From the NCBI GenBank assembly GCA_003987725.1, contig RXJH01000003.1, positions 248,001 to 312,000 on the forward strand: a stretch of 64,000 nt of DNA, given 5' to 3'. The number at the start of each line of letters is the position of its first letter. Position 1 is the first letter of the stretch. A program made the position numbers and the translations under genes. The stretch comes from Hyphomicrobium sp. GTDB lineage: Bacteria; Pseudomonadota; Alphaproteobacteria; Rhizobiales; Hyphomicrobiaceae. The notes beneath the pieces were generated by a model. That model was not told where the DNA came from. It saw only the letters and a list, made by a program, of their open reading frames with translations, and made no database searches. Below, in pieces: positions 16,948 to 34,457 of the stretch.

Positions 16948-16973
16948 GCAAAATTGTGGCGCCCCGTAGGGGA
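16948..16973. repeat. Left copy of 26-bp direct repeat: detached 3' end of tRNA-Glu (att-like site)
   Basis: These 26 bases are identical to 34432-34457 and in the same orientation. In the right copy, 17 of the bases form the 3' end of the intact tRNA-Glu(CTC) gene (part of the T arm, the acceptor strand, discriminator and CCA) and 9 lie beyond CCA. Here there is no tRNA body: the match stops at 16973. A detached tRNA 3' end as direct repeat to an intact tRNA is the usual mark of integration by a tyrosine recombinase. Confidence 0.8.
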
Positions 16974-17075
16974 GTTGGGCCGATCTTCAGAATCAATGTC
17001 TTGGCAAAAGGTTGGACACCAAAACTTCTCGGCTAATTCCATAGTATTTCGTCTGAAGTGTCCAACCGACGACGC
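16967..17075 (+). repeat. 109-bp repeat, copy A
   Basis: It aligns without gaps over 109 bases to 28672-28780, with 15 mismatches (86% identity). It contains a perfect 10-bp inverted repeat, GGTTGGACAC at 17010-17019 and GTGTCCAACC at 17058-17067. Its first seven bases overlap the end of the 26-bp tRNA-derived repeat. The ends recall terminal sequences of some insertion sequences, but no transposase is present, so the element type is unresolved. Confidence 0.8.
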
Positions 17076-17384
17076 CGTCGTTCGTCATCATACGGCGGTC
17101 GGGCCCGGCGACCGGCTGGTGAGCCTCGGGCTCGTGATCAGGAAGAACGGATCCAGCCGCCGGGCGTCGGATACAGGTTCACGTCACGAAAGAGGGCGGA
17201 GAAGCGTTGGCCGCGCTTTCCGTCGATCACCTTGAAGAATTGAAAGGCATACGTCCTGCTCTGCGCAAATCACTAAAGCAGTTTGAGCGCGGGTTCGGGC
17301 CGCAACGATACGGTTCCACCTAGCCGATGCACCTTTGCATAGTTGACCGGCCGAATAAATCATGTAGGCGGATTACTTTCGCAC
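17076..17384. other. Gap between repeat copy A and nasT
   Basis: Roughly 300 bases with no recognisable gene. Short frames here have no family features. An in-frame TTG at 17343 could extend NasT by 14 residues, but without a ribosome-binding site. The nasT promoter should lie here; I found no convincing motif. Confidence 0.5.
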
Positions 17385-18008
17385 ATGGATGAAGATATGG
17401 CGGCCGGGCAGAAGTCACTTTCCATTCTGGTCATCGACGAGAACCGTCTCCGCGCTTCCGTCATTGAAACGGGGTTGCGCGAAGCCGGCTACGACGACCT
17501 GACGATCGTCCACGATGTCATCGGTATCGCCCGGCGCATTGAGGAGATCCAGCCGGACGTCATCATGATCAATCTCGAAAACCCGAACCGCGACATGCTC
17601 GAGAACATGTTCCAGCTTTCGCGCGCCGTTAAGCGCCCGATCGCAATGTTCGTCGACCGTTCGGACAGCGCGTCGATCGAGGCGGCCGTGGAAGCGGGCG
17701 TCTCGGCCTATGTCGTCGACGGCCTCAAACGCGAGCGCGTCAAGCCAGTCCTCGACATGGCGATCAGCCGTTTCAATGCTTTCTCACGCATGTCGCGAGA
17801 ACTCGACGAGGCGCGCTCCGAACTCGAAAAGCGCAAGCTCGTCGAACGCGCCAAAGGCATTCTGATGTCGACGCGCGGCCTATCGGAGCAGCAGGCGTAC
17901 GCGCTGTTGCGGAAAACCGCCATGAGTCAGAACCGAAAGATTTCGGAAATCGCAGAAAGCCTGATCACAGCAGCGGGGCTCCTCGCACCACCCGGCGAGG
18001 AGGAGTGA
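17385..18008 (+). CDS. nasT: NasT-type ANTAR transcription antiterminator
   Basis: 207 residues from ATG 17385. A receiver-like domain (residues 12-125) is joined by a coiled coil (about 130-155) to a C-terminal ANTAR RNA-binding domain (about 140-196: L-V-E-R-A-K-G-I-L-M ... S-E-Q-Q-A-Y-A-L-L-R-K-T-A-M ... I-A-E-S-L-I). The family binds paired hairpins in nitrate/nitrite assimilation leaders and prevents termination. The usual phosphoacceptor position reads N63 (I-M-I-N-L-E-N-P), so control by phosphorylation is unlikely; the known alternative is sequestration by NasS, encoded immediately downstream. A likely target terminator lies before the transporter gene at 19437-19507. Confidence 0.88.
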   Translation: MDEDMAAGQKSLSILVIDENRLRASVIETGLREAGYDDLTIVHDVIGIARRIEEIQPDVIMINLENPNRDMLENMFQLSRAVKRPIAMFVDRSDSASIEAAVEAGVSAYVVDGLKRERVKPVLDMAISRFNAFSRMSRELDEARSELEKRKLVERAKGILMSTRGLSEQQAYALLRKTAMSQNRKISEIAESLITAAGLLAPPGEEE

Positions 18009-18010
18009 AA

Positions 18011-19234
18011 ATGGTCGAGACGCACCAGATCACCGCGGGCTTCATGCCGCTTCTCGATAGTGCAGTGCTCGTCACTGCAAAAGAAATGGGTTTCGCCGAG
18101 GCCGAGGGCATCGACCTGACGCTGGTACGCGAGATGTCTTGGGCCAATATCCGTGATCGCTTGGCCGTTGGTCATTTCCAGGTCGCACACATGCTGGCGC
18201 CGATGCCGATTGCCTGCAATCTCGGGCTGACGCCACTGGCCGTTCCAACAGTCGTTCCGATGGCGCTGGGCCAAGGCGGAAATGCGGTTACCGTCTCGAA
18301 TGCGGTTTGGGCCGCAATGTCGGCGCACGGAGCTGAGGAGAACTTCGACCCCGCGACGACGGGACACGCTTTGAGAAAGGTCGTTCTCGAACGCGTCTCG
18401 CAGCGGAAGCCGCCGCTGCGCTTCGCTGTCGTCCACCCGTTCTCGGGTCACAATTATGAACTTCGCTATTGGCTGGCGGCCTGCGGTATCGATCCCGCGC
18501 GCGATATCGAGATCGTCATCGTTCCGCCGCCGCTGATGGTCGACGCACTGGCAAGTGGAACCATTGATGGCTATTGCGTTGGTGAGCCTTGGAACACCGC
18601 CGCCGCTCTTCTTGGCCGCGGGCACATCGCGACCGTGAAAGCCGCGATATGGCGATCAAGCCCCGAGAAGGTTCTCGGTGCCGGTGCGCTCTGGGCAGAG
18701 GAAAATCCAGAAGCACTATCCGCATTGTTGCGAGCGCTGAGCAACGCCGCCAAATGGTGTGGAGATGCGATAAATCATGACGACCTCGCACGGATCCTTG
18801 CCGAAAAGCAGTATGTCGCGCAGCCGGTAGGATGGACGTTGCCAGCGCTTCGCGGCCAGTTGCCGATCGGCGGAGAGCGCACCGTGCCTGTTTCTGATTT
18901 CTTCGTGCCGTTCGCGAAAGGTGCGACCTTCCCGTGGAAAAGCCACGCACTCTGGTTCTATTCGCAAATGGTCCGTTGGGCGCAAGTGCAGCATTCGGCC
19001 GACAATGCGCGAATTGTGCACGAGACATATCGGCCTGACCTTTATCGTGCCGCCTTGAAGTCCCTCGGCATCGCGCTCCCCGTTGCGAATGCCAAGGTTG
19101 AGGGTGCCTTGACGGAAGCGACGCCGGTCGGCTCATCCGGCGCAAGCCTGGTGCTCGGACCCGACGGATTCTTCGATGGTGGCCTGTTCGATCCCGATAA
19201 GCTCGACGCCTACATCGCGAGCCAGAAACAGTAA
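18011..19234 (+). CDS. nasS: NasS-type nitrate/nitrite sensor (cytoplasmic NrtA-like protein)
   Basis: 407 residues from ATG 18011, six bases after GGAGGAG; the GTG at 18005 is too close to that site. The protein resembles the nitrate-binding proteins NrtA/CmpA (G-F-M-P-L-L-D-S-A near the start, V-H-P-F-S-G-H-N-Y-E-L-R-Y-W-L-A mid-protein, D-G-Y-C-V-G-E-P-W-N later). It lacks a signal or Tat peptide, and no ABC permease or ATPase genes follow. That is the NasS situation: in the family, NasS binds NasT and releases it when nitrate or nitrite is bound. It is two bases from the nasT stop codon, so the two are co-transcribed. Confidence 0.88.
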   Translation: MVETHQITAGFMPLLDSAVLVTAKEMGFAEAEGIDLTLVREMSWANIRDRLAVGHFQVAHMLAPMPIACNLGLTPLAVPTVVPMALGQGGNAVTVSNAVWAAMSAHGAEENFDPATTGHALRKVVLERVSQRKPPLRFAVVHPFSGHNYELRYWLAACGIDPARDIEIVIVPPPLMVDALASGTIDGYCVGEPWNTAAALLGRGHIATVKAAIWRSSPEKVLGAGALWAEENPEALSALLRALSNAAKWCGDAINHDDLARILAEKQYVAQPVGWTLPALRGQLPIGGERTVPVSDFFVPFAKGATFPWKSHALWFYSQMVRWAQVQHSADNARIVHETYRPDLYRAALKSLGIALPVANAKVEGALTEATPVGSSGASLVLGPDGFFDGGLFDPDKLDAYIASQKQ

Positions 19235-19261
19235 CGGGCACGAACTGCGTCAAACCGTGCG

Positions 19262-19277
19262 CTGCACAAAATTTGCA
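19262..19277 (+). promoter_or_regulatory. Candidate sigma-54 (-24/-12) promoter for the nitrate operon
   Basis: CTGCAC, five bases, TTGCA: one mismatch to the consensus TGGCAC-N5-TTGCA, with the proper 10-base distance between the -24 and -12 dinucleotides. It lies 27 bases after the nasS stop codon. Transcription would begin around 19288, giving a leader of about 245 bases that includes the hairpins and terminator. NtrC/sigma-54 control is common for nitrate assimilation; no NtrC box was identified. Confidence 0.45.
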
Positions 19278-19353
19278 CTGACGCTGCGCTAAAATGCTGA
19301 ATGTTTGGACTTGCGAAGCATCGCCAGACGCCACTATCCCTTGTTTCATGAAC

Positions 19354-19421
19354 CGAGTTGAACGTTTCAACTCGCCTAAGCAGCGGGATTTCCGCGTTTA
19401 GGAATTCATTGGCGTCCAATG
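19354..19421 (+). promoter_or_regulatory. Leader hairpins, putative NasT (ANTAR) RNA target
   Basis: Three consecutive stems precede the leader terminator. P1: CGAGTTGA 19354-19361 with TCAACTCG 19367-19374. P2: CCTAA 19375-19379 with TTAGG 19398-19402, plus inner GCGG/CCGC. P3: CATTGG 19407-19412 with CCAATG 19416-19421. ANTAR proteins recognise two adjacent hairpins with A at loop position 1 and G at position 4. The P1 loop begins AACG, which fits in part; I could not fit both loops exactly to the six-base consensus. Confidence 0.5.
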
Positions 19422-19436
19422 ACGGGCGCTCCAGGC

Positions 19437-19507
19437 AAAGCTGCCGATCAAGCATTCTTACCCGGTTTCGACGGGTGCGAGCGCTTGGCCGGCAGCTTTT
19501 TTGTTTT
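19437..19507 (+). terminator. Leader terminator (attenuator) ahead of the nitrate transporter gene
   Basis: A long stem, AAAGCTGCCGATCAAGC (19437-19453) against GCTTGGCCGGCAGCTTT (19483-19499), has two mismatches. An inner CCCG/CGGG stem lies at 19461-19475, and TTTTTTGTTTT follows. It ends 24 bases before the transporter ATG, inside the transcription unit rather than after a gene, so it should act as an attenuator. With nasS-nasT next door it is the expected site of NasT antitermination. Confidence 0.75.
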
Positions 19508-19531
19508 CCGCACTACGACCGGGAGCAATTC

Positions 19532-20845
19532 ATGCGCACACAGAAAGACTCGGTTTTGACGGTGTCCACGGCCGAAGGTCGTGCTCTTTGGGTTTCGACC
19601 ATCGCCTTCACAGTCTGCTTCGCGGTCTGGACGATCTTCGCGATCATCGGCATTCGCATCAAGGCTGAGCTGGGATTGAGCGAAACCGAGTTCGGTCTGC
19701 TTGCCGGAACGCCGATTTTAACAGGCTCTCTCGCCCGGGTTTTCCTCGGCATCTGGACGGATCGCTACGGCGGCCGGCTGATCTTCACGCTCAACATGCT
19801 GGCGGCAAGCGTTGCAACGGCGCTTCTCGTCTTTGCCCAGACCTACCCAGAAATGCTGTTGGCGGCACTCGGCATCGGTTTGGCGGGCGGTTCGTTCGCA
19901 GTCGGCATCGCCTATGTCTCGCGGTTCTATCAGAAAGGACAGCAAGGCACCGTGCTCGGCATCTTCGGAGCCGGAAACGTCGGTGCCGCCGTCACGAAAT
20001 TTCTCGCGCCGTTCGCTCTCGTCGCCTGGGGATGGCACGCCGTCGCACTGATCTGGGCCGCAGTGTTAGCCGTCATGGCGATCATTTTCTGGTTCACGAC
20101 GACCGATGATCCGATCACCGCCGAGCGGCGCCGCACAGGCGATACGCCCAAGGCCTATGCAATGGAACTCGCGCCGCTGAAGGACATTCGCGTCTGGCGC
20201 TTTTCTCTCTATTACTTTTTTACGTTCGGCGCCTTCGTTGCCCTCGCGCTGTGGCTGCCGCGATATCTGATCGGCGTCCACGGCTTCGACATCGAAACGG
20301 CCGGCATGATCGCTGCCGCATATTCAGTTCCAGCGAGCATCTTCCGCGCCTACGGTGGCGTGCTGTCGGATCGCATCGGCGCACGCACCGTCATGTACTG
20401 GTGCTTCGCCGTCTCGGCCGCCGCAACGCTGGCTTTGTCGGTGCCCCCAACCGACTACGTGATGCACGGTACGAACGGCTTGATCACCCGGCATTTCGAG
20501 ATCGGTCCGCTGGTGTTCGTCGGCATTGCGTTTGTGCTGGGCTTTTTCATGAGCATCGGCAAAGCCGCTGTCTATAAGCACATTGCGACGTATTACCCAG
20601 ACAACGTCGGCTCCGTCGGTGGTCTCGTCGGCATGATCGGGGGTCTCGGCGGCTTTGTTTTGCCGATCGCGTTTGGCTTCCTCAATCAGGTGACCGGGCT
20701 TTGGACGAGCTGCTTCATGCTGCTGTTCGCCATTGTCATGACGCTCTTCATCTGGATGCACGTTTCCATCCGGCGCATGGAAAAAAACGCTGCGAAATCG
20801 CCCGGCGCTCGTGAATCTCTCATCCCCGTGGGAGGTCAGGCATGA
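19532..20845 (+). CDS. MFS nitrate/nitrite transporter (NarK/NasA-transporter family)
   Basis: 437 residues from ATG 19532 (GGGAG six bases upstream); the open frame upstream runs through the leader terminator and is not coding. Twelve membrane helices are expected. Family features are the G-I-R-I-K-A-E-L-G-L-S-E-T-E-F entry, the nitrate-signature-like glycine-rich helix 5 (G-I-F-G-A-G-N-V-G-A-A-V-T-K) and its helix-11 counterpart (G-S-V-G-G-L-V-G-M-I-G-G-L-G-G-F). It imports nitrate, possibly exchanging nitrite, across the inner membrane. The 3' end overlaps nirB by 4 bases (ATGA), so it heads the structural operon for nirB, nirD and nasA. Confidence 0.9.
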   Translation: MRTQKDSVLTVSTAEGRALWVSTIAFTVCFAVWTIFAIIGIRIKAELGLSETEFGLLAGTPILTGSLARVFLGIWTDRYGGRLIFTLNMLAASVATALLVFAQTYPEMLLAALGIGLAGGSFAVGIAYVSRFYQKGQQGTVLGIFGAGNVGAAVTKFLAPFALVAWGWHAVALIWAAVLAVMAIIFWFTTTDDPITAERRRTGDTPKAYAMELAPLKDIRVWRFSLYYFFTFGAFVALALWLPRYLIGVHGFDIETAGMIAAAYSVPASIFRAYGGVLSDRIGARTVMYWCFAVSAAATLALSVPPTDYVMHGTNGLITRHFEIGPLVFVGIAFVLGFFMSIGKAAVYKHIATYYPDNVGSVGGLVGMIGGLGGFVLPIAFGFLNQVTGLWTSCFMLLFAIVMTLFIWMHVSIRRMEKNAAKSPGARESLIPVGGQA

Positions 20846-23289
20846 AACTCGTCATCATCGGCAATGGCATGGCGCCAGGCCGCATGCTCGAACATTTACT
20901 CGAGAGCGCGCCCGGCCGCTATAATGTCACGATCTTCAATGCCGAACCGCGCGTCAACTACGATCGCATCATGCTCTCTCCCGTTCTGTCGGGTGAGAAA
21001 AACTACGAACAGATCATCATTCACGGCGACGGCTGGTACATCAAAAATGGCATCACGCTCTACAAGGGCCATAGGATCGTAGCGATCGATCGCGAGGCGA
21101 AGACCGTGACGTCCGATCACGGCGTCGTCGAGCCCTACGACAAGCTCGTTATCGCCACAGGTTCGGTGCCTTTTATTCTGCCGGTGCCTGGCAACACGCT
21201 TGCCGGGGTCCTGAGCTACCGCGATCTGGATGACGTCAACGCGATGCTGCTTGCGGCGCAATCCCGTGCCAAAGCCGTTGTTATCGGTGGTGGCCTGCTC
21301 GGGCTCGAAGCCGCCGCCGGTCTCGAAGCCCAGGGCATGGACGTCACCGTTCTGCATTTGATGCCGACGCTGATGGAACGGCAACTCGATCCAGCGGCTG
21401 GATATTTGCTGCAACGGGCCATCGAAGATCGTGGCATCAAGGTCATCTGCAAGGCCAATACGAAAGCGATTGTCGGCGACAAGAAGGTCGAAGGTGTCGA
21501 GCTTGCCGATGGCCGCATCATTCCAGCGACCCTTGTCGTGATGGCGGCGGGCATAAAACCGAATGCAGGTCTGGCGAAAGATGCGGGTCTCGCGACGAAC
21601 CGGGGCATCGTCGTGGACGGGGGGATGCAGACCTCGGATCCGGATATTTACGCGCTTGGCGAGTGCGCGGAGGTCGGCGGGCATGTCTACGGTCTCGTCG
21701 CGCCGCTTTATGAAATGGCACGCGTCGCGGCAGCGCATCTTGCCGATGAGGCAAGCGCAGCAGCTTTCGTGCACAGCGATACGCCGACCAAGCTTAAAGT
21801 CACGGGCATCGAGCTCTTCTCGCTCGGCGACTTTGCCGATGGCGAGGATCGCCACGAGATCGTTCTGCGCGACGCTTCGGCGGGAATCTACAAGCGCGTT
21901 GTTCTGAAAGATAACCGCATTATCGGTACCGTGCTCTACGGCGAGACGGCCGATGGAGCGTGGTTCAATGACCTGAAGAAAAAGCAGGTCGATATTACCG
22001 ACATGCGCGACACCTTGATCTTCGGCCAAGCCTACCAGGGAGGTGCCCCCCTGGACCCTATGGCGGCCGTTGCAGCCTTGCCCGATGACGCAGAGATCTG
22101 CGGCTGCAACGGCGTTTGCAAAGGGAAGATCGTAGGCGCGATCCAAGCGAAAAGCCTGACGTCACTTGACGATGTCCGCGCCCATACCAAAGCTTCTGCC
22201 TCATGTGGATCGTGCACGGGCCTCGTCGAGCAGCTGATGTCTGTGACGCTAGGAGATGCCTACAACCCGGCGGCCGTGCAGCCGATGTGTGGATGCACGA
22301 CGCTCGGCCATGATGACGTACGTCGCTTGATCAAAGCCAAAGGCCTCAAGAATATCTACGCCGTCATGCAGGAGCTGGAATGGACCACCTCGTGCGGGTG
22401 CGCGAAGTGCCGTCCGGCGCTCAACTATTATCTCGTCTGTGATTGGCCCGGCGAATACGCCGACGATTATCAATCGCGCTTCATCAACGAGCGCGTTCAC
22501 GCCAACATTCAGAAGAACGGCACCTATTCGGTCGTACCGCGCATGTGGGGCGGCGTGACGAGCGCGAAGGAATTGCGTGCGATTGCCGACGTCGTCGACA
22601 AATTCAATATCCCGACCGTGAAGGTGACCGGCGGTCAGCGCATCGACATGCTCGGCATCAGGAAGGAAGACTTGCCGGCAGTCTGGGCCGATCTCGGAAA
22701 AGCCGGCTTCGTTTCCGGTCATGCTTACGCCAAGGGCCTGCGCACCGTGAAAACGTGCGTCGGGACAGACTGGTGCCGCTTCGGAACGCAGGACTCGACG
22801 GGCCTCGGAATTCGCATCGAGAAATTCATGTGGGGCTCATGGACGCCCGCCAAGGTCAAGATGGCAGTATCAGGATGTCCAAGAAACTGTGCCGAAGCCA
22901 CATGCAAGGACGTCGGCGTCATCTGCGTCGATTCCGGCTACGAGATTCACTTTGCCGGCGCCGCAGGCCTCGACATCAAAGGCACCGAGGTGCTCGGCCT
23001 CGTCAAGACAGAGGATGAAGCGCTGGAAGTCATCGTCGCGCTCGTCCAGATGTATCGGGAGCAAGCGCGCTATCTCGAACGCATCTACAAATGGGCGAAG
23101 CGCGTGACGATCGATGAAGTTCGCCACCAGATTCTCGACGATTTGGAAAAGCGCAACGGTTACTACGAGCGCTTCGTCTATTCGCAGAAATTCGCGCAGG
23201 TCGATCCCTGGTCCGAGCGCGTTTCCGGCCTTCACAAGCATGAATTCAAGCCGATGGCGACGATCGGTATGGCTGACGCAGCGGAGTGA
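20842..23289 (+). CDS. nirB: Assimilatory nitrite reductase [NAD(P)H], large subunit
   Basis: 815 residues. N-terminal FAD domain (V-I-I-G-N-G-M-A-P-G), NAD(P)H-binding domain (V-I-G-G-G-L-L-G-L-E-A-A near residue 145), two BFD-like [2Fe-2S] segments (E-I-C-G-C-N-G-V-C-K-G and A-S-C-G-S-C-T-G), then the nitrite/sulfite reductase ferredoxin-like and catalytic halves. The four ligands of the [4Fe-4S]-sirohaem centre are C639, C645, C679 and C683 (T-C-V-G-T-D-W-C ... S-G-C-P-R-N-C-A). It reduces nitrite to ammonium in the cytoplasm with six electrons from NAD(P)H. It overlaps the transporter gene by four bases and is followed directly by nirD. Length and motifs are complete. Confidence 0.96.
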   Translation: MKLVIIGNGMAPGRMLEHLLESAPGRYNVTIFNAEPRVNYDRIMLSPVLSGEKNYEQIIIHGDGWYIKNGITLYKGHRIVAIDREAKTVTSDHGVVEPYDKLVIATGSVPFILPVPGNTLAGVLSYRDLDDVNAMLLAAQSRAKAVVIGGGLLGLEAAAGLEAQGMDVTVLHLMPTLMERQLDPAAGYLLQRAIEDRGIKVICKANTKAIVGDKKVEGVELADGRIIPATLVVMAAGIKPNAGLAKDAGLATNRGIVVDGGMQTSDPDIYALGECAEVGGHVYGLVAPLYEMARVAAAHLADEASAAAFVHSDTPTKLKVTGIELFSLGDFADGEDRHEIVLRDASAGIYKRVVLKDNRIIGTVLYGETADGAWFNDLKKKQVDITDMRDTLIFGQAYQGGAPLDPMAAVAALPDDAEICGCNGVCKGKIVGAIQAKSLTSLDDVRAHTKASASCGSCTGLVEQLMSVTLGDAYNPAAVQPMCGCTTLGHDDVRRLIKAKGLKNIYAVMQELEWTTSCGCAKCRPALNYYLVCDWPGEYADDYQSRFINERVHANIQKNGTYSVVPRMWGGVTSAKELRAIADVVDKFNIPTVKVTGGQRIDMLGIRKEDLPAVWADLGKAGFVSGHAYAKGLRTVKTCVGTDWCRFGTQDSTGLGIRIEKFMWGSWTPAKVKMAVSGCPRNCAEATCKDVGVICVDSGYEIHFAGAAGLDIKGTEVLGLVKTEDEALEVIVALVQMYREQARYLERIYKWAKRVTIDEVRHQILDDLEKRNGYYERFVYSQKFAQVDPWSERVSGLHKHEFKPMATIGMADAAE

Positions 23290-23293
23290 CGAC

Positions 23294-23623
23294 ATGAGCT
23301 GGGTATCGATCGGCAGCATTACCGATATTCCGCGGCGTGGCGCGCGCTGTGTTGAAACACCGATAGGCAAAATCGCGGTGTTCCGCACGGCGGAGGATCG
23401 CGTCTTCGCGATCGAGGATCACTGTCCGCACAAAGGAGGCCCGCTGAGCCAGGGAATTGTCCACGGCACTGCCGTCACGTGCCCACTGCACAATTGGGTC
23501 ATCTCGCTCGAAACCGGAAAGGCGCTCGGCGCCGATGAAGGCAGCGTGCGAACGATCCCAATCAAAGTCGAGGCAGGAATGCTCTTCATCGGTTTGGTCG
23601 TCACGGCCGACCGGGCAGCCTGA
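23294..23623 (+). CDS. nirD: Nitrite reductase small subunit, Rieske-type
   Basis: 109 residues from ATG 23294, four bases after the nirB stop codon. A Rieske-like fold with C44-P-H46 and C63-P-L-H66 (H-C-P-H-K-G-G ... T-C-P-L-H-N-W) gives the two Cys and two His ligands of a [2Fe-2S] cluster; some NirD proteins have lost these, but here all four are present. NirD pairs with NirB in the cytoplasmic NAD(P)H nitrite reductase. The start was chosen at the ATG with the classic M-S-W opening rather than the much longer upstream frame that overlaps nirB. Confidence 0.94.
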   Translation: MSWVSIGSITDIPRRGARCVETPIGKIAVFRTAEDRVFAIEDHCPHKGGPLSQGIVHGTAVTCPLHNWVISLETGKALGADEGSVRTIPIKVEAGMLFIGLVVTADRAA

Positions 23624-23636
23624 GGCAGAAACAGAC

Positions 23637-26297: not shown

Positions 26298-26300
26298 GCA

Positions 26301-27605
26301 TTGAAACAAGTTAGCGGCTATTTGCCTGTAACGCTGGTGCTTGGCGCGTTTCTAGGCTTATCCAGCATGTCACTCGCTGCCGATCTAGGCGGTGATTGCT
26401 GCAGCGATCTCGAAGAGCGCGTTGCCGAACTCGAAGCGACGACCGCACGCAAAGACAATCGCAAGGTCTCGCTGACGATATCGGGTTACGTCGCCCAGGA
26501 GCTGACGTGGTGGGATGATGGCGCGGAGAGTAACGCGTATGTCCACGGATTGGGGCCGACGCAGGCGACGCATGTCAAGTTCACTGGCGAAGCGCAGTTC
26601 ATGCCAGGCTGGAAGGCGGGATACACGCTCAGGATTCAGAATCTTTCCGACAACCCGTTTGGGCGCAACGCCGCGACGGGCGCGGCGATCAATCAATCTT
26701 CACCCGACTTCAATCAAGGCCTCAATGTTCAGATGTCGTATTGGTACTTGCAGAGCAAGGACCTCGGCAAAGTGAGCATCGGCCGGCAAGCGGATGCTTC
26801 CAAGAGCGTTGCGATGTTCACCGATCAGTCGGGCACGCAGATCATCGACAACTATACGTTCCTCGCTGGATTTCCCCAGTTTGGCATCCGGAGAAACGGT
26901 GCCCTCGTGCCGGGGTTTACATGGGGCCAGCTAGCGTACTGCTATTCCCAGAACGTTCCGCTCGGTGGCGACTGCGACGGCCTCGTGATGAATTCCGTGC
27001 GATACGACTCTCCCGTCTTCGGCGGCTTTTCGGTATCGGCAAGCTGGGGCGAAGATGACGATTGGGAAATCGCAGCGCGTTACGCCGGACAATGGAATGC
27101 GTTCAAGGTTCAGCTTGGTGCCGGCTATTCCGAAAACACTGACGAGCGCATCAGCGGAACGGCCGTCATGACCTCGAAGGATTCACAATTCTTCCAGGCC
27201 GGCGGCTATGTCGAACACCAACCAACAGGTCTCTTCGTGCATGCGGCCTACGGTCGTGAAGACAATAACAATGCGCTTCTGACGAATGGACATACGGCAC
27301 CCGCCAGTCATCAGTGGTACGTCAAGTCCGGTATCCGGCGGCGATGGATGCCGCTTGGCGCCACGATCGTCTACGGCGACTATGTCGAGTACGACGATCA
27401 ACTCGGTCCGACGGCGCTTGCTTTAGGCGCGACGGGAAGCAAATTCTCCCGATACGGCGGAGGCATTGCGCAGGAAATCGATGCCGCAGCAATGACCCTC
27501 TATCTCAAATACCAGCATTATGATGGCGACGTATCGGGAGCTCAGGCTTTAACCGATCTCGAGGGGCTCGACCTTGTGAGCGTCGGTGGGCTGATCAACT
27601 TCTAG
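26301..27605 (+). CDS. Alphaproteobacterial porin in the nitrate operon
   Basis: 434 residues starting at TTG 26301, six bases after GGAG and only three bases after the nasA stop codon. A signal peptide ends S-L-A-A-D-L-G-G. Then comes the typical alphaproteobacterial porin opening D-C-C-S-D-L-E-E-R-V-A-E-L-E (a short coiled coil) followed by K-V-S-L-T-I-S-G-Y-V, and a beta-barrel ending G-G-L-I-N-F. Its place between nasA and cobA suggests it is induced with the pathway and lets nitrate or nitrite through the outer membrane; that specificity is inference from context only. Confidence 0.85.
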   Translation: MKQVSGYLPVTLVLGAFLGLSSMSLAADLGGDCCSDLEERVAELEATTARKDNRKVSLTISGYVAQELTWWDDGAESNAYVHGLGPTQATHVKFTGEAQFMPGWKAGYTLRIQNLSDNPFGRNAATGAAINQSSPDFNQGLNVQMSYWYLQSKDLGKVSIGRQADASKSVAMFTDQSGTQIIDNYTFLAGFPQFGIRRNGALVPGFTWGQLAYCYSQNVPLGGDCDGLVMNSVRYDSPVFGGFSVSASWGEDDDWEIAARYAGQWNAFKVQLGAGYSENTDERISGTAVMTSKDSQFFQAGGYVEHQPTGLFVHAAYGREDNNNALLTNGHTAPASHQWYVKSGIRRRWMPLGATIVYGDYVEYDDQLGPTALALGATGSKFSRYGGGIAQEIDAAAMTLYLKYQHYDGDVSGAQALTDLEGLDLVSVGGLINF

Positions 27606-27642
27606 CGTGCGTATTTGGGTCGAGACGGCGGAGGTACTTCAA

Positions 27643-28575
27643 ATGCATGCTGACGCGACATCACTGCCGCAACGCGTTTTGGGTACGCGGCATCTCTTGC
27701 TCGGTGTCATCCAATACGCTCTGAGAGCGGCGTCAATGACGTTCGCCCATCTAAACCGAAGCATCTCGAAATCGACCGACTTCAGAAGCGAACGAGATCG
27801 CGTCCGGACACACGGCTGCGTGACGCTGGTCGGCGCCGGGCCGGGCGATCCGGAGCTTTTGACTGTCAAGGCGGTGCGCGCCATCGAGTGCGCTGACGTC
27901 ATTTTGTTCGATGCTCTCGTTTCTGAGGCCGTTCTCGAATTGGCGCGGCGACACGCACAACTCATTTGCGTGGGCAAGAGAAGTGGCCACCCAAGTTGCC
28001 GCCAAGACGACATCAATAGACTGATGGTCGAACACGCCAGTGCCGGCAAGCGTGTCGTTCGTCTGAAGTCTGGAGATCCCGCGATCTTCGGAAGGGCTGG
28101 CGAAGAGATGTCGTATCTCGCATCCGCTGGTCTCGAGGCACAAATCGTGCCCGGTATTACTGCGGGATCCGCAATGGCCGCTGCTTTCGGGATCTCACTC
28201 ACGCATCGCGATCATGCAAAGTCCGTGCGCTTCGTCACAGGGCATTCCAAAAACGGCGGCCTGCCAGAGGATATCGACTGGCAAGCCATCGCTGATCCAT
28301 CGACGACGACCATTTTCTATATGGGCGCGCCCTTTGCCGGAGAGATCGCAACGCGGCTTATGGCAATCGGAATGTGGGGCGATACGCCAGTCGGAATCGC
28401 ATCGGCGCTCAGCCGGAGCAATGAAAGGATCGTCCGGTGTTCACTCGCAGAACTCAGCAACGCAATTAGCGGCTTCGATCGCCGCGAGCCGTTGATACTT
28501 GGGATCGGGGAGGTGTATTCGAGCACATTCGAGGCGGCTCCATTCCGCAACGATGCCCACGCGACCGTTAGTTGA
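27643..28575 (+). CDS. cobA: Uroporphyrinogen-III C-methyltransferase (SUMT)
   Basis: 310 residues from ATG 27643, with GGAGGT seven bases upstream; a GTG at 27607 is the alternative. SUMT signatures: V-T-L-V-G-A-G-P-G-D-P-E-L-L-T near residue 65, R-L-K-S-G-D-P-A-I-F-G-R-A-G-E-E, and P-G-I-T-A-G-S-A. It uses S-adenosylmethionine to make precorrin-2, the precursor of the sirohaem required by NirB. It lacks the CysG oxidase/ferrochelatase half, so the last sirohaem steps need an unlinked enzyme. It is the last gene of the nitrate operon. An extended N-terminus of about 60 residues before the catalytic domain is slightly unusual. Confidence 0.9.
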   Translation: MHADATSLPQRVLGTRHLLLGVIQYALRAASMTFAHLNRSISKSTDFRSERDRVRTHGCVTLVGAGPGDPELLTVKAVRAIECADVILFDALVSEAVLELARRHAQLICVGKRSGHPSCRQDDINRLMVEHASAGKRVVRLKSGDPAIFGRAGEEMSYLASAGLEAQIVPGITAGSAMAAAFGISLTHRDHAKSVRFVTGHSKNGGLPEDIDWQAIADPSTTTIFYMGAPFAGEIATRLMAIGMWGDTPVGIASALSRSNERIVRCSLAELSNAISGFDRREPLILGIGEVYSSTFEAAPFRNDAHATVS

Positions 28576-28998
28576 AGTGCCGGCCATATGCGCGGCTCAC
28601 GCTAACGGATCGGCGAAGGCGACGAGATCTTCGTTGGATCCAACCCGGGTGAAAGTTTCAAACGAAATTCTTAGGGGAGTTGGTGCGATCTTCAAGATCA
28701 ATGTGTTAGCGAAAGGTTGGACACCAAAACCTCTCAGCCATTTCCATAGCATTTCGCCGGAAGTATCCAACCGACGACGCTTTTGATGTTCGAGATTCGA
28801 GTGCCAGCAGGGATAGCTCGACGCGGGTGGACCCCAGCGTCCGCATTGCCGAGAAAGCGGACATTGCCTCTATTTGGGTTTGCGCGAAGCACGCATAGTC
28901 GAAGCAGGTCCGCAGTTGCACGCTATGCAGACATAACTGCCACGACCGCTATGGCCAAGAGCGGAATAGAAACCAGGCCTGAAGCCTGTCTACTGTCA
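28576..28998. other. Gene-free joint between the nitrate block and the DUF1501/DUF1800 block
   Basis: About 420 bases. It contains repeat copy B (28672-28780). The rest, about 28800-28990, shows only short frames on both strands. The minus-strand frame contains a phrase, M-S-A-F-S-A-M-R-T, that resembles degenerate repeat-derived frames I have seen across alphaproteobacterial genomes; this is recollection, not a search. No terminator with a T-run was found after cobA. Confidence 0.5.
28672..28780 (+). repeat. 109-bp repeat, copy B
   Basis: Gapless partner of 16967-17075 (94 of 109 identical). The internal inverted repeat is preserved at 9 of 10 positions (GGTTGGACAC with GTATCCAACC). It begins TAGGGGAGTTGG like copy A, but the preceding bases do not match the tRNA-Glu 3' end beyond this. 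It lies exactly between the nitrate genes and the second gene block of the island. Confidence 0.8.
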
Positions 28999-30192
28999 TC
29001 AGAGTAATTTGAGGTCTCGAGGTTCTACGGAAGCGAAGACGCGCTGAAGTCCGCTCTGATCGAGTCCATACATGCGTTGAAAGAGGCCACTCAGAAGGCG
29101 GCGATAGTCCGTAAGCACAGGATAATCGCGGTTCTGAAAGAGGTGAGCTTGGTCGACCGCCACTTGTTCGCCCGCTATCCGGCCGCCCTTAATGCTGCCG
29201 CCCATCACCCAATAGACGCTACCATGGCCGTGATCCGTGCCACGATTGCCGTTTTCACGAAACGTACGGCCGAACTCGGATATGACGACGACAACCGTGT
29301 CCTTCCAATTTGAGCCGACTTCCTCGGCGAACCCTGCGAGGCCACGGCCGAGTTCGGCAAGACGATCGGCAAGATAGCCGGTGGCGGCCCCCTGGTTGAC
29401 GTGCGTGTCCCAGCCGCCGACATCGACGAAGCCGAGATTGAATTGATCGCGCATCAGCCGGCCGATGCGGCGGGCGGATAGCTCGAAGCCCTTTGGCGAC
29501 ACCGCGCCCCGGCTTGCTTCCATCATGTGGTCCGTAATCGCGTGGTACACATCATCTCGCACGCGAAAGCCCTCTCGCACGGTCGCGGACAAGGGCTGAC
29601 CCTCATACATGGACGCGATCAGATTCGCTTGCCGATCGTCGATGCCTGCCTTTCCGACATTGTTGATGGCGATGTTTGGTATGGGTTCGCCACCTTGAAA
29701 TGTCAGCGGCATCTGGTCGGTGAAGGAGATCGGACGCACGCGGGTCAGCGTGGAGGCGAGGCGAGCCATGAACCCCGAGCGGAAATCGCGCTCGCCTTCG
29801 ATGTTCTGTCCGAGTTCAATCGTATCTTGCGTCTCGAAATGACTGCGCGAGAGGTCATCGGTTCCGGCGAAAGGCACGAAAGCAACTTGCCCCTTGGAGA
29901 ACAGTGGAAGAATTGTTTCTCGCAGCGCAGGATGAAGGCCCCAATTACTATCAAGCGTCGAAGCCGCTTCGGGTACTGCCGAATTCGGTTTGGCAATGGC
30001 AAGTGTCGGTCGGGAGGCATAGTAGAAATCGCTGCTGACCGGGATCACCACGTTGGCTGCATCATAGGCGCCCCGCAAGAACACGACGAGAAAACGCGCG
30101 TCGGTCTTCGGAGCTGCCCATAGACGGCCTGCCACGGTCATCGAACCAAGTGTGGCGAGGCCCTGGATCATCTGACGGCGATGGAAGAGCAT
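28999..30192 (-). CDS. DUF1501 family protein
   Basis: 397 residues. The start M-L-F-H-R-R-Q-M-I-Q-G-L ... G-R-L-W-A-A looks like a twin-arginine signal peptide, as in most DUF1501 members. The body has the family's V-V-F-L-R-G-A-Y-D-A-A-N opening, L-H-P-A-L-R-E, G-G-W-D-T-H-V-N-Q and V-V-V-I-S-E-F-G-R-T-F-R-E-N-G-N-R-G-T-D-H-G-H-G. The last three resemble metal-binding stretches of the alkaline-phosphatase/sulfatase superfamily. It probably works in the periplasm. It follows the DUF1800 gene by 26 bases; the two families nearly always occur together. Their biochemical role is not established. Confidence 0.88.
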   Translation of the reverse strand: MLFHRRQMIQGLATLGSMTVAGRLWAAPKTDARFLVVFLRGAYDAANVVIPVSSDFYYASRPTLAIAKPNSAVPEAASTLDSNWGLHPALRETILPLFSKGQVAFVPFAGTDDLSRSHFETQDTIELGQNIEGERDFRSGFMARLASTLTRVRPISFTDQMPLTFQGGEPIPNIAINNVGKAGIDDRQANLIASMYEGQPLSATVREGFRVRDDVYHAITDHMMEASRGAVSPKGFELSARRIGRLMRDQFNLGFVDVGGWDTHVNQGAATGYLADRLAELGRGLAGFAEEVGSNWKDTVVVVISEFGRTFRENGNRGTDHGHGSVYWVMGGSIKGGRIAGEQVAVDQAHLFQNRDYPVLTDYRRLLSGLFQRMYGLDQSGLQRVFASVEPRDLKLL

Positions 30193-30218
30193 GGTGCCTA
30201 TCCTACGGTGCGATCCTG

Positions 30219-31745
30219 TTAATTCATGAACTCAGGGGACGACAGGAACAGCGTGTTCCAGTCTTGCGGCGAAACCGCTTCGTCAAGAGCAGCTCGAGTC
30301 GGCGAACCGAGCATTCGATTCAGACTGCCGAAATACAGTGCATTCTCGAGAAGGGGAAAAGCCGGTTTGTCCACCGCGTCCGACTCCGCCGACTTGAACA
30401 GGCCAGCTGAATTCGAGCCAATCTGCCGAGCGATTTCAAAGCGCGTCATCATCTGCCCGGAGCCGTTCCAGGCGGATGACGTCATCGGATAACCGTCCGG
30501 CGTCTGGTGATTGTAGAGACCTTCAGCAAGCCGGTTCAGCCAGTTCTGAATGGGAGCGCTGTTGAGAATGACCTTGTCGTCATAGGCCAAACGCACCGCG
30601 GACAAGACGTACCGCGTCGGGTCCTTGAAACGTTTCCCGAGAGATGCGGTGAACTCGGGCGCGCGAAACAGTGTCTCCAATACACTCGCGATGTCACCGT
30701 CCGTATTGGTGAATGTCTGGGCCATCCGGTCGATCAACGTTGAGGGTGGATCATCGGATGTGAAGTAGGTTGCGATCTCGCGAGAGATATGGCGCGCGGT
30801 CGCTGGCTCGCGACTGAGGATATCGAGCACCTCCTCGACCTCGACGAAACCCCGGCCTTTGATCACGTGGCCAAGGAACACTTTGTCGCCGAAGTCGTGG
30901 CGGGCGGGATTGAATTCGAAGAGGCCTACACGGATGAACTTGCCCTGTAGTTCCGGCTTAAGTTTCGGATTCTCCGGTTTGATATCGACGCCGACGCCCG
31001 TGAGTATGCGGGCAAGCTCCTCGACGTCCTTTTGGGTGTAGCCCGAACCTACTCCCATGGTGTGGAGTTCCATGATCTCACGGGCATAGTTCTCATTGAT
31101 GTGTCCGGCTGCGTTGTCGGCGTTGTCGAGATAGCGAAGCATCGCCGGATGCCGGACCGTGGCTTCGAGTAAATCGCGAAACCGCCCAAGCGCATGGGCG
31201 CGGATTGCCCGATCCTCGTAGTCGCCCACCAGAACGCGGACATTGGCCTTATATTGATGGACGTTGAAGTGGTTGAACCAGAACCACGTCATGCGTTCGC
31301 GCAATTGGTCAGGTGCGTAGAGCGCCCGCAATATCGTGCGGGTTGCGGCTTGATGCGCGATATCGGTCATCGCCTGTTGAAATGTGTGCTGAGCCGCCGC
31401 CTTCTGATCAGGATCCTTGATTTGGTTCGCCGCGTGCCCTTGCGCGTCGAACTCTGCGGCCAGATCCAGCGCAGATTTTTGTGCAGATGGCAGTGCATTG
31501 ATCTGCTTCTGCGCGGCCTCGGGGAGGCGTGCATCCGCCGGGGGGCGCAACTGGGCTTGCAGCCAGGTTTCAGCTCCCATTGCCTGGAAAGCCTGGACGG
31601 TCGAACCGGTAACACCCCAGGTGACCGCGTCAATCAGGGCAATATCCCGCGCGGTTAGAGCCGGGTTCATCTGCGCGGCGGTGCCGGCTGACGCCGCAAC
31701 AGCAAGCACGACAACGAGGGCGAAGGCAGCCTTTGAGAGGCGCAT
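30219..31745 (-). CDS. DUF1800 family protein
   Basis: 508 residues from ATG 31745, six bases after GAGG; a TTG 24 bases upstream is less likely. A signal peptide ends around T-A-A-Q. DUF1800 features: T-W-F-W-F-N-H-F-N-V mid-protein, N-E-N-Y-A-R-E-I-M-E-L-H-T-M-G-V (a highly conserved segment) and T-Q-K-D-V-E-E-L-A-R-I-L-T-G. It is secreted and co-transcribed with the DUF1501 gene downstream. Function is not known; the pair is widespread in Proteobacteria and Planctomycetes. Here it sits in the distal part of the putative island. Confidence 0.88.
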   Translation of the reverse strand: MRLSKAAFALVVVLAVAASAGTAAQMNPALTARDIALIDAVTWGVTGSTVQAFQAMGAETWLQAQLRPPADARLPEAAQKQINALPSAQKSALDLAAEFDAQGHAANQIKDPDQKAAAQHTFQQAMTDIAHQAATRTILRALYAPDQLRERMTWFWFNHFNVHQYKANVRVLVGDYEDRAIRAHALGRFRDLLEATVRHPAMLRYLDNADNAAGHINENYAREIMELHTMGVGSGYTQKDVEELARILTGVGVDIKPENPKLKPELQGKFIRVGLFEFNPARHDFGDKVFLGHVIKGRGFVEVEEVLDILSREPATARHISREIATYFTSDDPPSTLIDRMAQTFTNTDGDIASVLETLFRAPEFTASLGKRFKDPTRYVLSAVRLAYDDKVILNSAPIQNWLNRLAEGLYNHQTPDGYPMTSSAWNGSGQMMTRFEIARQIGSNSAGLFKSAESDAVDKPAFPLLENALYFGSLNRMLGSPTRAALDEAVSPQDWNTLFLSSPEFMN

Positions 31746-32111
31746 GGGAAACCTCGCGAACCACCGCAAATCATCGCTTTGCGAACTTGAAAAGATGACG
31801 CCCAGTTATTGAACGCATTGCCGTTGCCGCTAGGGTGTCAAGATGGACCTTCCTGCATCATCGCAAGCCCACAGCGTTGAAAGAAGACTGCAACAAAAAA
31901 CGCGAGCCCACTCAATATCGATCTAGGACTCATTGCCATTCTCCCAACTTGGTCCACGCGGACTTAGGTGTAGGAACTTGGCTAAAACGCGTCCCGCTTA
32001 TTACCGATTCTCAAAGTTAGCCGGCGATCAATCCGCTCTCCATGAGCGTTCGGAGGGTGGCTAACGAACGGTGTTCTTGACGAACACTGTTCGTCGTGTA
32101 AGGTTTGTGTC
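31746..32111. other. Divergent intergenic region between DUF1800 gene and TetR gene
   Basis: About 365 bases. The right end holds the twin palindromes described at 32063-32095. The left part should contain the promoter of the DUF1800/DUF1501 pair; no specific element identified. No gene is visible. Confidence 0.5.
32063..32095. promoter_or_regulatory. Twin TetR-type operator palindromes
   Basis: Two adjacent 17-bp sites. The first, 32063-32079, is a weaker palindrome around GAAC-GGT-GTTC. The second, 32079-32095, is a perfect 7-bp inverted repeat, GACGAAC-ACT-GTTCGTC. Their centres are 16 bp apart and they end 16 bases before the TetR start codon. This is the expected place for autoregulation of the tetR-monooxygenase operon. 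Confidence 0.7.
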
Positions 32112-32795
32112 ATGGGAACCAGAGCTCGACACACCGTCAGTCGACGAAGCCGGCCTGCGAAGGCTCCCCTAAGTAGGGACGTCATCGTTGCCTCTGCGCT
32201 TTCTCTTTTGGAGAGCGATGGGCTGGAGGGATTGAGCCTGCGTCGTGTCGCTGCGGCTTTGGATACGGGGGCAGCTTCGCTTTATGTGTACCTCGCCAAT
32301 CTCGAAGAACTCTACGCGTTGATGCTTGACCAGGCTTTGGCGGAGATGCCGCCGACTTCAGGCAGGAAACGTGGCTGGCGTGATCGTCTGAAAGACTATC
32401 TCGCTTCCTATCTCAGCATACTGAACAAACGGCCGGGTTTAGCTCATGTCGCCATGAGCACGATCTCAGCGGGGCCTAACACGTTGCGCATGTGGGAGGT
32501 GCTGCTCGGCCTGTTGGAAGAGGGAGGCATCGACGCTGAGGAGCGTGTAGCGGGTGTCGACATGCTCCTGCTCCACGTGACGGCAATGGCGGCTGAAGAA
32601 GATAATCGACGGTCGGTAGGTCACGATTTCAAGCGGGTACGGAACGCCCTGGCCGTTGTGCCGCGAAAGGATTTTCCGCGCTTGAGCACGCTCTTTGAGC
32701 AGGGGCTGTTTTCCGGCAGCGGTGACGACGTCGCGATTGGTTGGGCGGTCGACGTCATTGTCGGCGGGATCTTGGCCAACAAGCATCGAGGCTGA
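32112..32795 (+). CDS. TetR family transcriptional regulator
   Basis: 227 residues from ATG 32112. The N-terminal helix-turn-helix (residues 20-65: R-D-V-I-V-A-S-A-L-S-L-L ... L-S-L-R-R-V-A-A-A-L-D-T-G-A-A-S-L-Y-V-Y) is a good TetR match. The C-terminal ligand domain (G-L-A-H-V-A-M ... W-E-V-L-L-G-L-L-E-E-G-G) resembles the TetR_C group of tetracycline-type repressors. Palindromes directly upstream are its probable operators. It is 19 bases from the downstream flavin monooxygenase, so the usual reading is a repressor released by a substrate of that enzyme. The ligand is unknown. Confidence 0.9.
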   Translation: MGTRARHTVSRRSRPAKAPLSRDVIVASALSLLESDGLEGLSLRRVAAALDTGAASLYVYLANLEELYALMLDQALAEMPPTSGRKRGWRDRLKDYLASYLSILNKRPGLAHVAMSTISAGPNTLRMWEVLLGLLEEGGIDAEERVAGVDMLLLHVTAMAAEEDNRRSVGHDFKRVRNALAVVPRKDFPRLSTLFEQGLFSGSGDDVAIGWAVDVIVGGILANKHRG

Positions 32796-32814
32796 AATCT
32801 GAAGGGATATTGAG

Positions 32815-33957
32815 GTGGTAAAACCGATCACGATAATCGGTGCGGGTCTCGCTGGGCTCACGCTCGCGCGCGTCCTGCACGTTCACGGGATAGCGTCGAC
32901 CATTTACGAGGGGGAGATCTCGCCGAGCGCACGCACCCAGGGCGGGCAGCTTGATATTCACGATTTCAACGGCCAGCTCGCCCTCAAAGAATGCCGGCTT
33001 TTTGACGAATTTCGCGCGATCATCAACCTGGGCGGCGAAGCGATGCGGTTCGTAAGCCCCACCGGCTCGGTGCTCGGAGAGGTCGCTGACGACGGCAAGC
33101 TCGAAAATCCCGAGGTCTTGCGTGGCGATCTGCGACGCATCTTGATCGAGTCACTTCCGCCAAGTTCGATTAGATGGGGCCACAGGGTCGAGAGCGTTAA
33201 GTCTCTGCAAAACGGCAAGCACCTCGTGCTGTTTGACGATGGGGCGGAGATAGAGACGGATGTTCTGATTGGGGCAGACGGAGCGTGGTCGAAGGTCAGG
33301 GGGCTGCTGTCGGAGGCTAAACCGGAGTATACGGGCACCGTATGGATTGAGACTTTCCTGCATGACGTCAAAAAGCGCCACGCGAGCTGCGCCGCGTTGG
33401 TTGGGAAAGGCGCGATGCTGGCGATGATGCCTGGAAAAGGAATCTTCGGTCATCGGGAAGCCAACGACGTCATCCATACTTATGTCGTGCTGAAAAAACC
33501 AAATGGATGGACTCCCACTGCAGATTTCGGGGACAGGAACGCTGCTCTGTCCTACGTCGCCGATCAACTAGGAGAGGGTTGGGCGCCCGAGCTGCTGTCG
33601 CTAATCACGCGCGGTGAAACCTTTCCCGTCACGCGGCCGATATGGGGGCTACCAGTCGGCCATAAATGGGATCACTCTCCAGGAGTAACGTTGGTCGGCG
33701 ATGCCGCGCATTTGACGCCGCCTGATGGCGATGGGGCGAATTGGGCGTTATACGACGGGGCGGATCTTGGGAAGCGTATCGCAGCCAATCCGGAACATGT
33801 TGAAGCCGCCTTGATCGAGTTCGAACAGGAAATGCTGCCACGAAGTGCGGCTTCTTCCGTTGAGGGCCACCAGTCCTTTGAACGGATGTTCGGCTATAAC
33901 GCTCCGGAAAATCTCCGGACGATGATGAAAGAACAAGGCTGGGAGCGAAGTTCGTAA
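32815..33957 (+). CDS. FAD-dependent monooxygenase, TetX-like
   Basis: 380 residues from GTG 32815 (GAAGGG eight bases upstream). N-terminal Rossmann motif I-I-G-A-G-L-A-G-L-T-L-A, the family's R-T-Q-G-G-Q-L-D-I-H region, a mid-protein substrate-domain segment F-G-H-R-E-A-N, and the FAD-ribityl motif G-D-A-A-H-L-T-P-P-D-G-D-G-A-N. The order and spacing follow the TetX/para-hydroxybenzoate-hydroxylase class, with TetX-specific traits such as the N-P-E-V-L-R-G-D-L-R-R-I-L segment. Such enzymes hydroxylate aromatic or tetracycline-like compounds. Co-transcription with a TetR repressor suggests detoxification of an inducer. Activity on tetracyclines is not implied by sequence alone. Confidence 0.8.
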   Translation: MVKPITIIGAGLAGLTLARVLHVHGIASTIYEGEISPSARTQGGQLDIHDFNGQLALKECRLFDEFRAIINLGGEAMRFVSPTGSVLGEVADDGKLENPEVLRGDLRRILIESLPPSSIRWGHRVESVKSLQNGKHLVLFDDGAEIETDVLIGADGAWSKVRGLLSEAKPEYTGTVWIETFLHDVKKRHASCAALVGKGAMLAMMPGKGIFGHREANDVIHTYVVLKKPNGWTPTADFGDRNAALSYVADQLGEGWAPELLSLITRGETFPVTRPIWGLPVGHKWDHSPGVTLVGDAAHLTPPDGDGANWALYDGADLGKRIAANPEHVEAALIEFEQEMLPRSAASSVEGHQSFERMFGYNAPENLRTMMKEQGWERSS

Positions 33958-34431
33958 CCTCGTGATAGGGCGCCTGTCTCTGGGAATAAGGCTGCCTGCC
34001 GGCATTTGAGATGCCGCCCGCGCCGAGGGAACCTCGGAGGGTGTCCCACCCACTCGCAATGGTTGGTACCCGCTGGATGATGAGTGCGGTCGCCGGAAAT
34101 CCTGGTGTGATCATCGCCCCCTTCACAGTGCCTATGTTGCTGGGGCGCAGCAGAGGTGGCCAGAGTTTCGAGAGGCCAGGAACCGGATCTCATGCCCGCT
34201 TCACCTCATGAACGGACGTGGTCGGTGATTGCCTCGAAACACGACCACGGACTGGTCGACTTCTGCTAATGGGATCGAGCGACCGCGTGCTGAGGCCGAC
34301 GGAGGGCCGAAAGCGGTCGGGATCGCGGTCAGCTCTTTCTGCCGCCGCTCAATACAGGCCAAAAAAGGGCGTCGAACTCGACATTTGAATGGCCATAACG
34401 AGTTGATATTAGACGTTTTTATTAGGCTATG
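33958..34431. other. Gene-free right end of the island
   Basis: About 470 bases between the monooxygenase gene and the tRNA-Glu-linked repeat. Both strands have only short frames without family features. A small stem (CGGCAT/ATGCCG near 33999) has no T-run. This is where an integrase gene would normally sit next to the tRNA; none is present, not even a recognisable fragment. Confidence 0.55.
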
Positions 34432-34457
34432 GCAAAATTGTGGCGCCCCGTAGGGGA
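34432..34457. repeat. Right copy of the 26-bp direct repeat (att-like, overlapping tRNA-Glu 3' end)
   Basis: Identical to 16948-16973. Bases 34441-34457 are the 3' end of the intact tRNA-Glu gene and 34432-34440 lie beyond its CCA. See the left copy and the island entry. Confidence 0.8.

Follow-up and report, generated by a model that had tools for sequence, protein, structure and literature searches.

A nitrate-assimilation cluster at a tRNA-Glu(CTC) integration hotspot in Hyphomicrobium, probably part of two tandem island remnants

The segment between the tRNA-Glu repeats

We analysed a 64,000-nucleotide stretch of the genome of a Hyphomicrobium sp. (the window; positions 248,001–312,000 of the 755-kb contig C11 of genome G000), in which a complete cluster of genes for nitrate assimilation (nas) lies between two copies of the 3′ end of a tRNA-Glu(CTC) gene. 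The copies are identical 26-mers at 16948–16973 and 34432–34457, on the same strand (+) and 17,484 bp apart. An intact tRNA-Glu(CTC) gene, called by ARAGORN and matching Rfam RF00005, occupies 34441–34516 on the minus strand, so that the right 26-mer, which overlaps its 3′ end, consists of the final 17 nt of the tRNA, CCA among them, and 9 nt beyond; the left one carries the same 17-nt core, at 16957–16973, with the same 9 nt. The repeats are thus as exact, and oriented, as a first-pass annotation of the window had described them, and the right copy is indeed the end of an intact tRNA gene. Throughout the genome (4.25 Mb, 15 contigs) the 26-mer occurs in these two places only, and a second copy would arise by chance in the window with a probability of about 3e-11 (about 128,000 positions, counting both strands, divided by 4^26). 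When further copies of the core were sought on C11:1–452,000, on both strands and with up to 3 mismatches, just two 3-mismatch matches were found, at about 431 kb (+) and at 51.6 kb (–), which we ascribe to chance. The segment is bounded, as an island may be, by a direct repeat of a tRNA 3′ end, and we refer to the two 26-mers as the left and right att (attachment) copies, for reasons given below.

Directly behind the left core comes a 109-bp sequence, D1a (16967–17075, +), and then a truncated 3′ fragment of a marR-type gene (17078–17312, +). The cluster itself, all on the plus strand, comprises nasT, encoding an ANTAR response regulator (17343–18008; PF03861, PF00072); nasS, encoding an NMT1-like protein (18005–19234; PF13379), a putative sensor that we take to respond to nitrate; a gene for a NarK-like nitrate/nitrite MFS transporter (19358–20845; PF07690; 207 bits against TIGR00886, below its cut-off of 312); nirB, for the large subunit of nitrite reductase (20842–23289; TIGR02374, 899 bits, above cut-off); nirD, for the small subunit (23114–23623; TIGR02378 above cut-off, PF13806), with its domain at residues 62–157 and an uncertain start codon; and nasA, for a molybdopterin nitrate reductase with a C-terminal BFD domain (23457–26297; PF00384, PF01568, PF04879, PF04324), which also has an uncertain start codon and for which no NCBIfam model scored above its cut-off. 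A porin gene (26301–27605; PF13609) and a cobA/cysG-type gene for the uroporphyrinogen-III C-methyltransferase of siroheme synthesis (27607–28575; TIGR01469 above cut-off) follow, and colinearity with the relative G015 stops at 28576.

A second copy of the left-end sequence, D1b (28672–28780, +), then precedes genes for a DUF1501 protein (28999–30192, –; PF07394), a DUF1800 protein (30219–31769, –; PF08811; 94% identical in amino acids to a copy on another contig of G015), a TetR-family regulator (32112–32795, +; PF02909) and a FAD-dependent monooxygenase (32815–33957, +; PF01494). The Tet(X) model matches the last of these so distantly (130 bits vs a cut-off of 750) that the name Tet(X) is unwarranted. 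At the level of domain families, the first-pass gene list is correct from nasT to the monooxygenase. Nitrate reductase, NirBD, a transporter, NasST and a siroheme methylase are all present, NasA, NasT and NasS being identified by Pfam domains and context, and from family membership and general knowledge the cluster should serve ordinary nitrate assimilation: control by NasST, uptake by the MFS protein, reduction by NasA and NirBD, and supply of siroheme. A leader RNA upstream of the transporter gene is not indicated, as the sequence there folds no better than shuffled sequences (z 0.60).

D1a and D1b are 86% identical. Among 41 genomes, D1 was found in two, twice here and once in the relative G001 (C4:843039–843153; 83–85% to D1a), where it likewise comes immediately after an att core, at a distance of 36.6 kb from tRNA-Glu. 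In the alignment with G001, the match of the left att copy and D1a sets in with the first core base, and that of D1b begins inside the core and extends for about 200 bp, to approximately 28865; D1b retains the last 7 nt of the core (TAGGGGA), and the preceding ten bases, ACGAAATTCT, are unlike it. The AAATT in these ten bases also precedes the core in the 26-mer, so that a deletion of 9–10 bp inside an att copy is one possible reading, and we infer that a middle att copy has decayed or been partly deleted. Because D1 and a partial core recur at 28672, two tandem units are likely: the segment probably consists of a nas unit (16948–28671) and a unit carrying the DUF1501, DUF1800, TetR and monooxygenase genes (28672–34457). 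The two parts may have different histories, since the DUF1501/DUF1800 part is 92.3% identical to G015, like the core genes to the right of the tRNA (92.0%), whereas nas is about 89–90% identical to that genome. Moreover, the DUF1501/DUF1800 pair (28991–32036) lies on another contig (C2) of G015, at the same 92.3%, which implies that this module has moved too. The first-pass view of one acquired 17.5-kb island is thus upheld in respect of the att scar at the tRNA and not in respect of a single unit.

No integrase gene was found in or near the segment: PF00589 has 11 matches in the genome and none between C11:5,697 and C11:692,922, in agreement with the first-pass annotation. The segment is therefore no active element and may at best represent a decayed island. 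Two of the integrase matches in the genome lie at the start of the contig (C11:190–5696), where GC over 5 kb is 48.5%, clearly lower than in the remainder. A search of 72,556 plasmid records gave no match to the att copy with D1; relatives of nasA are present on plasmids, at 67.7% identity in the best case.

Use of the tRNA-Glu site by elements of related genomes

We placed the gene for RluA, which adjoins tRNA-Glu, in 60 genomes and took the tRNA-side stretches of 17 relatives. In three of the 17 (G011, G002 and G021) tRNA-Glu was not found beside RluA, the tRNA-Glu contig of G012 stops about 30 bp past the tRNA, and the approximately 17–18 kb read in G006 and G028 contained the tRNA itself only. 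The counts that follow cover the other 11 relatives, over 36–93 kb downstream of the tRNA 3′ end, and this genome, over 282 kb.

With up to 2 mismatches allowed, the 17-nt core recurs in eight of these 12 genomes, in 11 extra copies that all have the orientation of the tRNA. They lie 17.5 kb from the tRNA in this genome, 19.1 kb in G015, 14.2 kb in G003, 45.5 kb in G020, 17.4, 30.3 and 37.0 kb in G018, 13.8 and 36.6 kb in G001, 23.8 kb in G007 (2 mismatches) and 35.2 kb in G016 (1 mismatch). At up to 1 mismatch, tRNA-Glu has 10 extra copies in seven of 12 genomes, compared with none for any of 11 other tRNAs, six of them on C11 of this genome (one a doubtful tRNA-SeC call) and five in the nas stretches of G018 and G020. 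Among the matches listed, integrase genes stand beside tRNA-Glu at distances of 33 bp in G020, 68 bp in G015, 91 bp in G010 and 0.9 kb in G018, and in G003 and G001 they adjoin the far att copy; an integrase is thus near in at least five of the eight genomes with extra cores, and in at least six relatives in all. Several genomes share island ends in varying combinations, with matches that start at the core, and one five-gene block occupies three different tandem positions in G018, G003 and G001.

The cores, the control tRNAs and the integrases together indicate that elements of the relatives use this same site. Since the relatives show recurring cores, nearby integrases and shared island ends at tRNA-Glu, the most plausible reading of the left 26-mer is an att copy, and it is very probably a remnant of a past integration; the proposal that it is a detached scar of the att type is borne out. 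As to cargo, the nine proteins scanned from the G015 island include an integrase, a primase-like protein, and glycosyl- and methyltransferases. A tRNA-Glu island of G003 (C1:3008988–3023139) has its integrase at the far end and a type II restriction–modification pair near the tRNA. A literature search gave no report on this tRNA-Glu hotspot among the matches listed, which is not proof of absence.

nas elsewhere in the genus and its marR neighbour

NasS at 68% identity or more is encoded by 11 of 21 genomes of the same genus, G021 having weak matches of 26–31% only. The genome studied here has a single NasS match at E ≤ 0.001. Relative to RluA, placed for ten of these 11 (all except G014), nas is on another contig in five (G001, G006, G012, G016 and G020), 0.5–1.2 Mb away in G007, G008, G017 and G018, and within 60 kb in G015. 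The order nasT–nasS–(MFS)–nirB–nirD–nasA is constant in all 13 relatives' nas loci that were read, with no MFS gene at 45% identity or above seen in one of them (G028). The nasA gene of G001 (L094:7201–10022) matches in two pieces that join at residue 378/379, possibly through a frameshift or a sequencing error. Being widespread in the genus and common in gene order, nas at this site points to relocation or to re-acquisition from a close relative, not to a function new to the genus, and the suggestion of a clear modular metabolic gain is not supported.

A trace of the former location may remain. In five of the 13 loci (G015, G018, G020, G001 and G016) a 2.5-kb segment that has a MarR gene at its end stands in front of nasT. 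In the genome studied here this MarR-bearing segment stands alone, at C11:173.1–175.6 kb, 90 kb from nas, and the fragment in front of nasT is about 234 bp of the 3′ part of marR, 84.5% identical to the matching 3′ half of the intact marR of this genome (C11:175152–175628). The intact copy is 88–90% identical to those of G001, G015, G018 and G020; the fragment, which has a 1-nt insertion relative to the six other copies aligned, is 82–90% identical to the same four and 69% to G016. We take the orphan marR, together with the broken marR before the island nasT, to mean that the resident nas has gone from its usual neighbour and that a copy with a broken marR now lies in the hotspot.

In G015, nas lies 48–59 kb from tRNA-Glu, outside the recognized att pair of that genome, and no att core with up to 3 mismatches was found near the nas genes of G001, G015, G018 and G020 (55–65 kb, one strand; in G015 excluding the 40 kb next to tRNA-Glu). 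In G020, a tRNA-Tyr(GTA) gene has its 3′ end about 0.2 kb from the start of the segment leading into nas (C6:84592–84884) and lies about 2.7 kb from nasT; the same tRNA-Tyr(GTA) is about 8 kb from the nas block of G018. No tRNA-Tyr repeats were found around nas in either genome.

For nine genomes, the core genes to the right of the tRNA give a fully resolved tree (six of six inner branches starred); nas does not (two of six starred), and its five-species clade forms an open star. Identity of nasT, nasS, the MFS gene and nirB (nasA was left out) is 89.5–91.7% for all ten pairs of five species, compared with 84.2–94.6% for the core genes, which suggests that nas has been exchanged within the genus. 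G018 (C3:2582680–2603343) and G001 (C2:120121–140682) have in common a 20.7-kb block that includes nas and is 92.9% identical, vs 81.8% for their core genes to the right of the tRNA; the four nas genes within the block are 90.3% identical.

Proposed history, alternatives and significance

The best overall explanation, to which we give a probability of about 0.6, is that the tRNA-Glu gene is an integration hotspot holding two tandem remnants whose integrase has gone, and that nas is a module of the genus. Tyrosine-recombinase elements of the genus would attach at the 3′ end of tRNA-Glu(CTC), regenerate the tRNA and accumulate in tandem, and the 26-mer at 16948 can with good assurance be regarded as an att copy from one such integration. 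The nas unit would run from this copy through D1a, the truncated marR and nasT to cobA (16948–28671), and a second unit with the same left end would consist of a degenerate att copy, D1b and the DUF1501, DUF1800, TetR and monooxygenase genes (28672–34457). The integrase, which lies 33–91 bp from the tRNA in three relatives, is absent here and was presumably lost: had the nas unit been deprived of its right end, an integrase placed as in G015, G020 and G010 would have gone with it, and the units would since then have been fixed. nas itself may have left its marR site in this lineage, and either have been carried in by an element of a close relative or have moved within the lineage.

Several observations weigh against this history. 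D1 was found in one relative only (G001), the middle att copy keeps just 7 of the 17 core bases, and in four of the 12 genomes (G017, G008, G019 and G010) no second core copy was seen within about 37 kb. Searches of the segment with nine integrase proteins, obtained from ten integrase sites of relatives, revealed no remnant, with no match below E 0.022; the best match, in the DUF1501 stretch, was dismissed. In 2-kb windows, GC is 0.56–0.60 to the left of the repeat, 0.57–0.60 in the segment and 0.57–0.65, mostly above 0.60, to the right of the tRNA; the change in composition expected at the borders is thus seen as a step at the tRNA and not at the left copy. As for exchange of nas, conservation of the genes compresses the differences between species, and an approximately unbiased (AU) test did not reject trees in which nas tracks the species pairs (p 0.321 for G000 with G015; 0.236 for G020 with G001), so that a horizontal origin is unproven for the nas copy of this genome.

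The left flank also speaks against it. The gene at 15987–16931, sought in 60 genomes, matched in eight: this genome, five relatives with full-length copies, and two with short weak matches (G008 and G032), which were set aside. In the five (G015, G007, G012, G016 and G020) the block preceding the gene is also present, in full or in part, and homology stops within 2 bp of the stop codon, 16–18 bp short of the repeat. An empty site joining this gene directly to tRNA-Glu, which would have been expected of a simple island, was found in none of the five, the tRNA not lying within the 9–10 kb read downstream of the gene. Comparison of the 1.5 kb beyond the left copy with tRNA-Glu and att flanks of 13 other genomes gave no match. 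The stop in homology and the lack of tRNA-Glu beyond it suggest that the outer flank either has been rearranged or forms the right end of a further unit. Shared right ends occur in relatives, and the 9 nt by which the 26-mer extends past the tRNA would agree with this second possibility, although the flank itself matches none of those ends. The G020 copy of the gene is on the same contig as tRNA-Glu, in inverted orientation and at a distance of about 83 kb. In G008, homologues of window positions 179–3352 and of C11:242.9–246.9 kb lie 3–17 kb from tRNA-Glu without other att copies, a hint that the left side is the natural neighbour of tRNA-Glu. A larger island extending leftwards was considered and rejected: ten of the 57 open reading frames of C11:196–265 kb were scanned, and gave hydrogenase genes, metE, isocitrate lyase, ribonucleotide reductase and similar genes, and no mobile genes.

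Further modules near the site likewise have other positions in G015, and part of the pattern is therefore explained by plain rearrangement. In its full form, this alternative holds that the att fragment is the scar of an older, vanished island, and that nas, the DUF1501 module and the left-flank modules came by homologous or illegitimate recombination without an integrase. It accounts for the left-flank block and the DUF1501/DUF1800 pair being on other contigs in the sister genome G015, whose core genes are 92% identical, for a breakpoint 16–18 bp from an att copy, and for the 20.7-kb nas block of G018 and G001, which is 92.9% identical and in which neither an att core (on the one strand examined) nor, between its edges, an exact repeat of at least 13 bp was found. 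Rearrangement alone, however, does not predict that nas should be bracketed by two D1 left ends, nor that D1 should stand behind an att core in G001 too, and we regard it as an unlikely account of the whole.

A single 17.5-kb element, integrated once at tRNA-Glu from attL at 16948 to attR at 34457 and later deprived of its integrase, would explain the exact terminal att pair and the missing integrase, and its size falls within the distances from tRNA to nearest copy in relatives (for example 14.2 kb in G003 and 19.1 kb in G015). The second left end with a partial core at 28672 is unexpected for such an element, as is the difference in identity to G015 between the DUF1501/DUF1800 part and nas, and we regard this account as about as unlikely as rearrangement, or slightly more so. 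An assembly artefact at the left repeat, which the 15 contigs and a left flank that is not next to tRNA-Glu in relatives might bring to mind, is highly improbable, because the 755-kb contig runs through the junction, repeats of 26 bp are too short to confuse an ordinary assembly, and D1 is independently present behind an att core in G001.

A more general proposal is that nas is a travelling module of the genus which circulates between species via tRNA-linked hotspots (tRNA-Glu here, tRNA-Tyr in G020) and repeatedly displaces resident copies, with nitrate use set by island turnover, not descent. This is a speculative idea, which we think doubtful.

Islands of tyrosine recombinases that target tRNA genes include tandem arrays. 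In Methylophilaceae, ‘additive’ flexible islands are described that have repeats of the final 20 nt of tRNA-Lys ahead of them (PMC10872708); the locus studied here resembles them, as there described, in its direct repeats of a tRNA tail, in variable tandem content and in the integrases beside the tRNA of relatives, and differs in lacking an integrase itself, in the site, tRNA-Glu(CTC), and in carrying a full nas cluster. Tycheposons of Prochlorococcus are portrayed in the same source as tRNA-bordered cargo islands with a tyrosine recombinase, and are said to act in nitrate assimilation (PMC10872708). Going by that description, tRNA-bordered cargo and nitrate assimilation are in common, whereas our segment has no tyrosine recombinase and belongs to a different phylum. 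For Prochlorococcus at large, another paper argues instead for vertical descent, loss and homologous recombination. In ‘Ferrovum’ JA12, a nitrate assimilation cluster beside a tRNA, an integrase and three transposases is read as the result of horizontal transfer (PMC4886054). That cluster too is in a rearranged region near a tRNA; its description, in the part concerned with it, mentions no att repeat, whereas here there are att repeats and no integrase is left (PMC4886054). With the nas clusters of the NasST type in other Alphaproteobacteria, the present one has the NasS family in common (for example 74% identity in Aminobacter, 72% in Hyphomicrobium and 65–71% in Mesorhizobium), and what is unusual in this genome is its location only.

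Nitrate genes in tRNA-linked islands have thus been reported before, and the present case is a good example of an established kind of gene mobility, not a new one. It shows that cargo native to the genus can lie within a genuine att pair, which calls for caution when islands are called from single genomes. In addition, a basic nutrient pathway is here enclosed by att copies within a hotspot of tandem islands and its old marR neighbour can still be recognized, so that loss and re-gain of nitrate use become testable within one genus.

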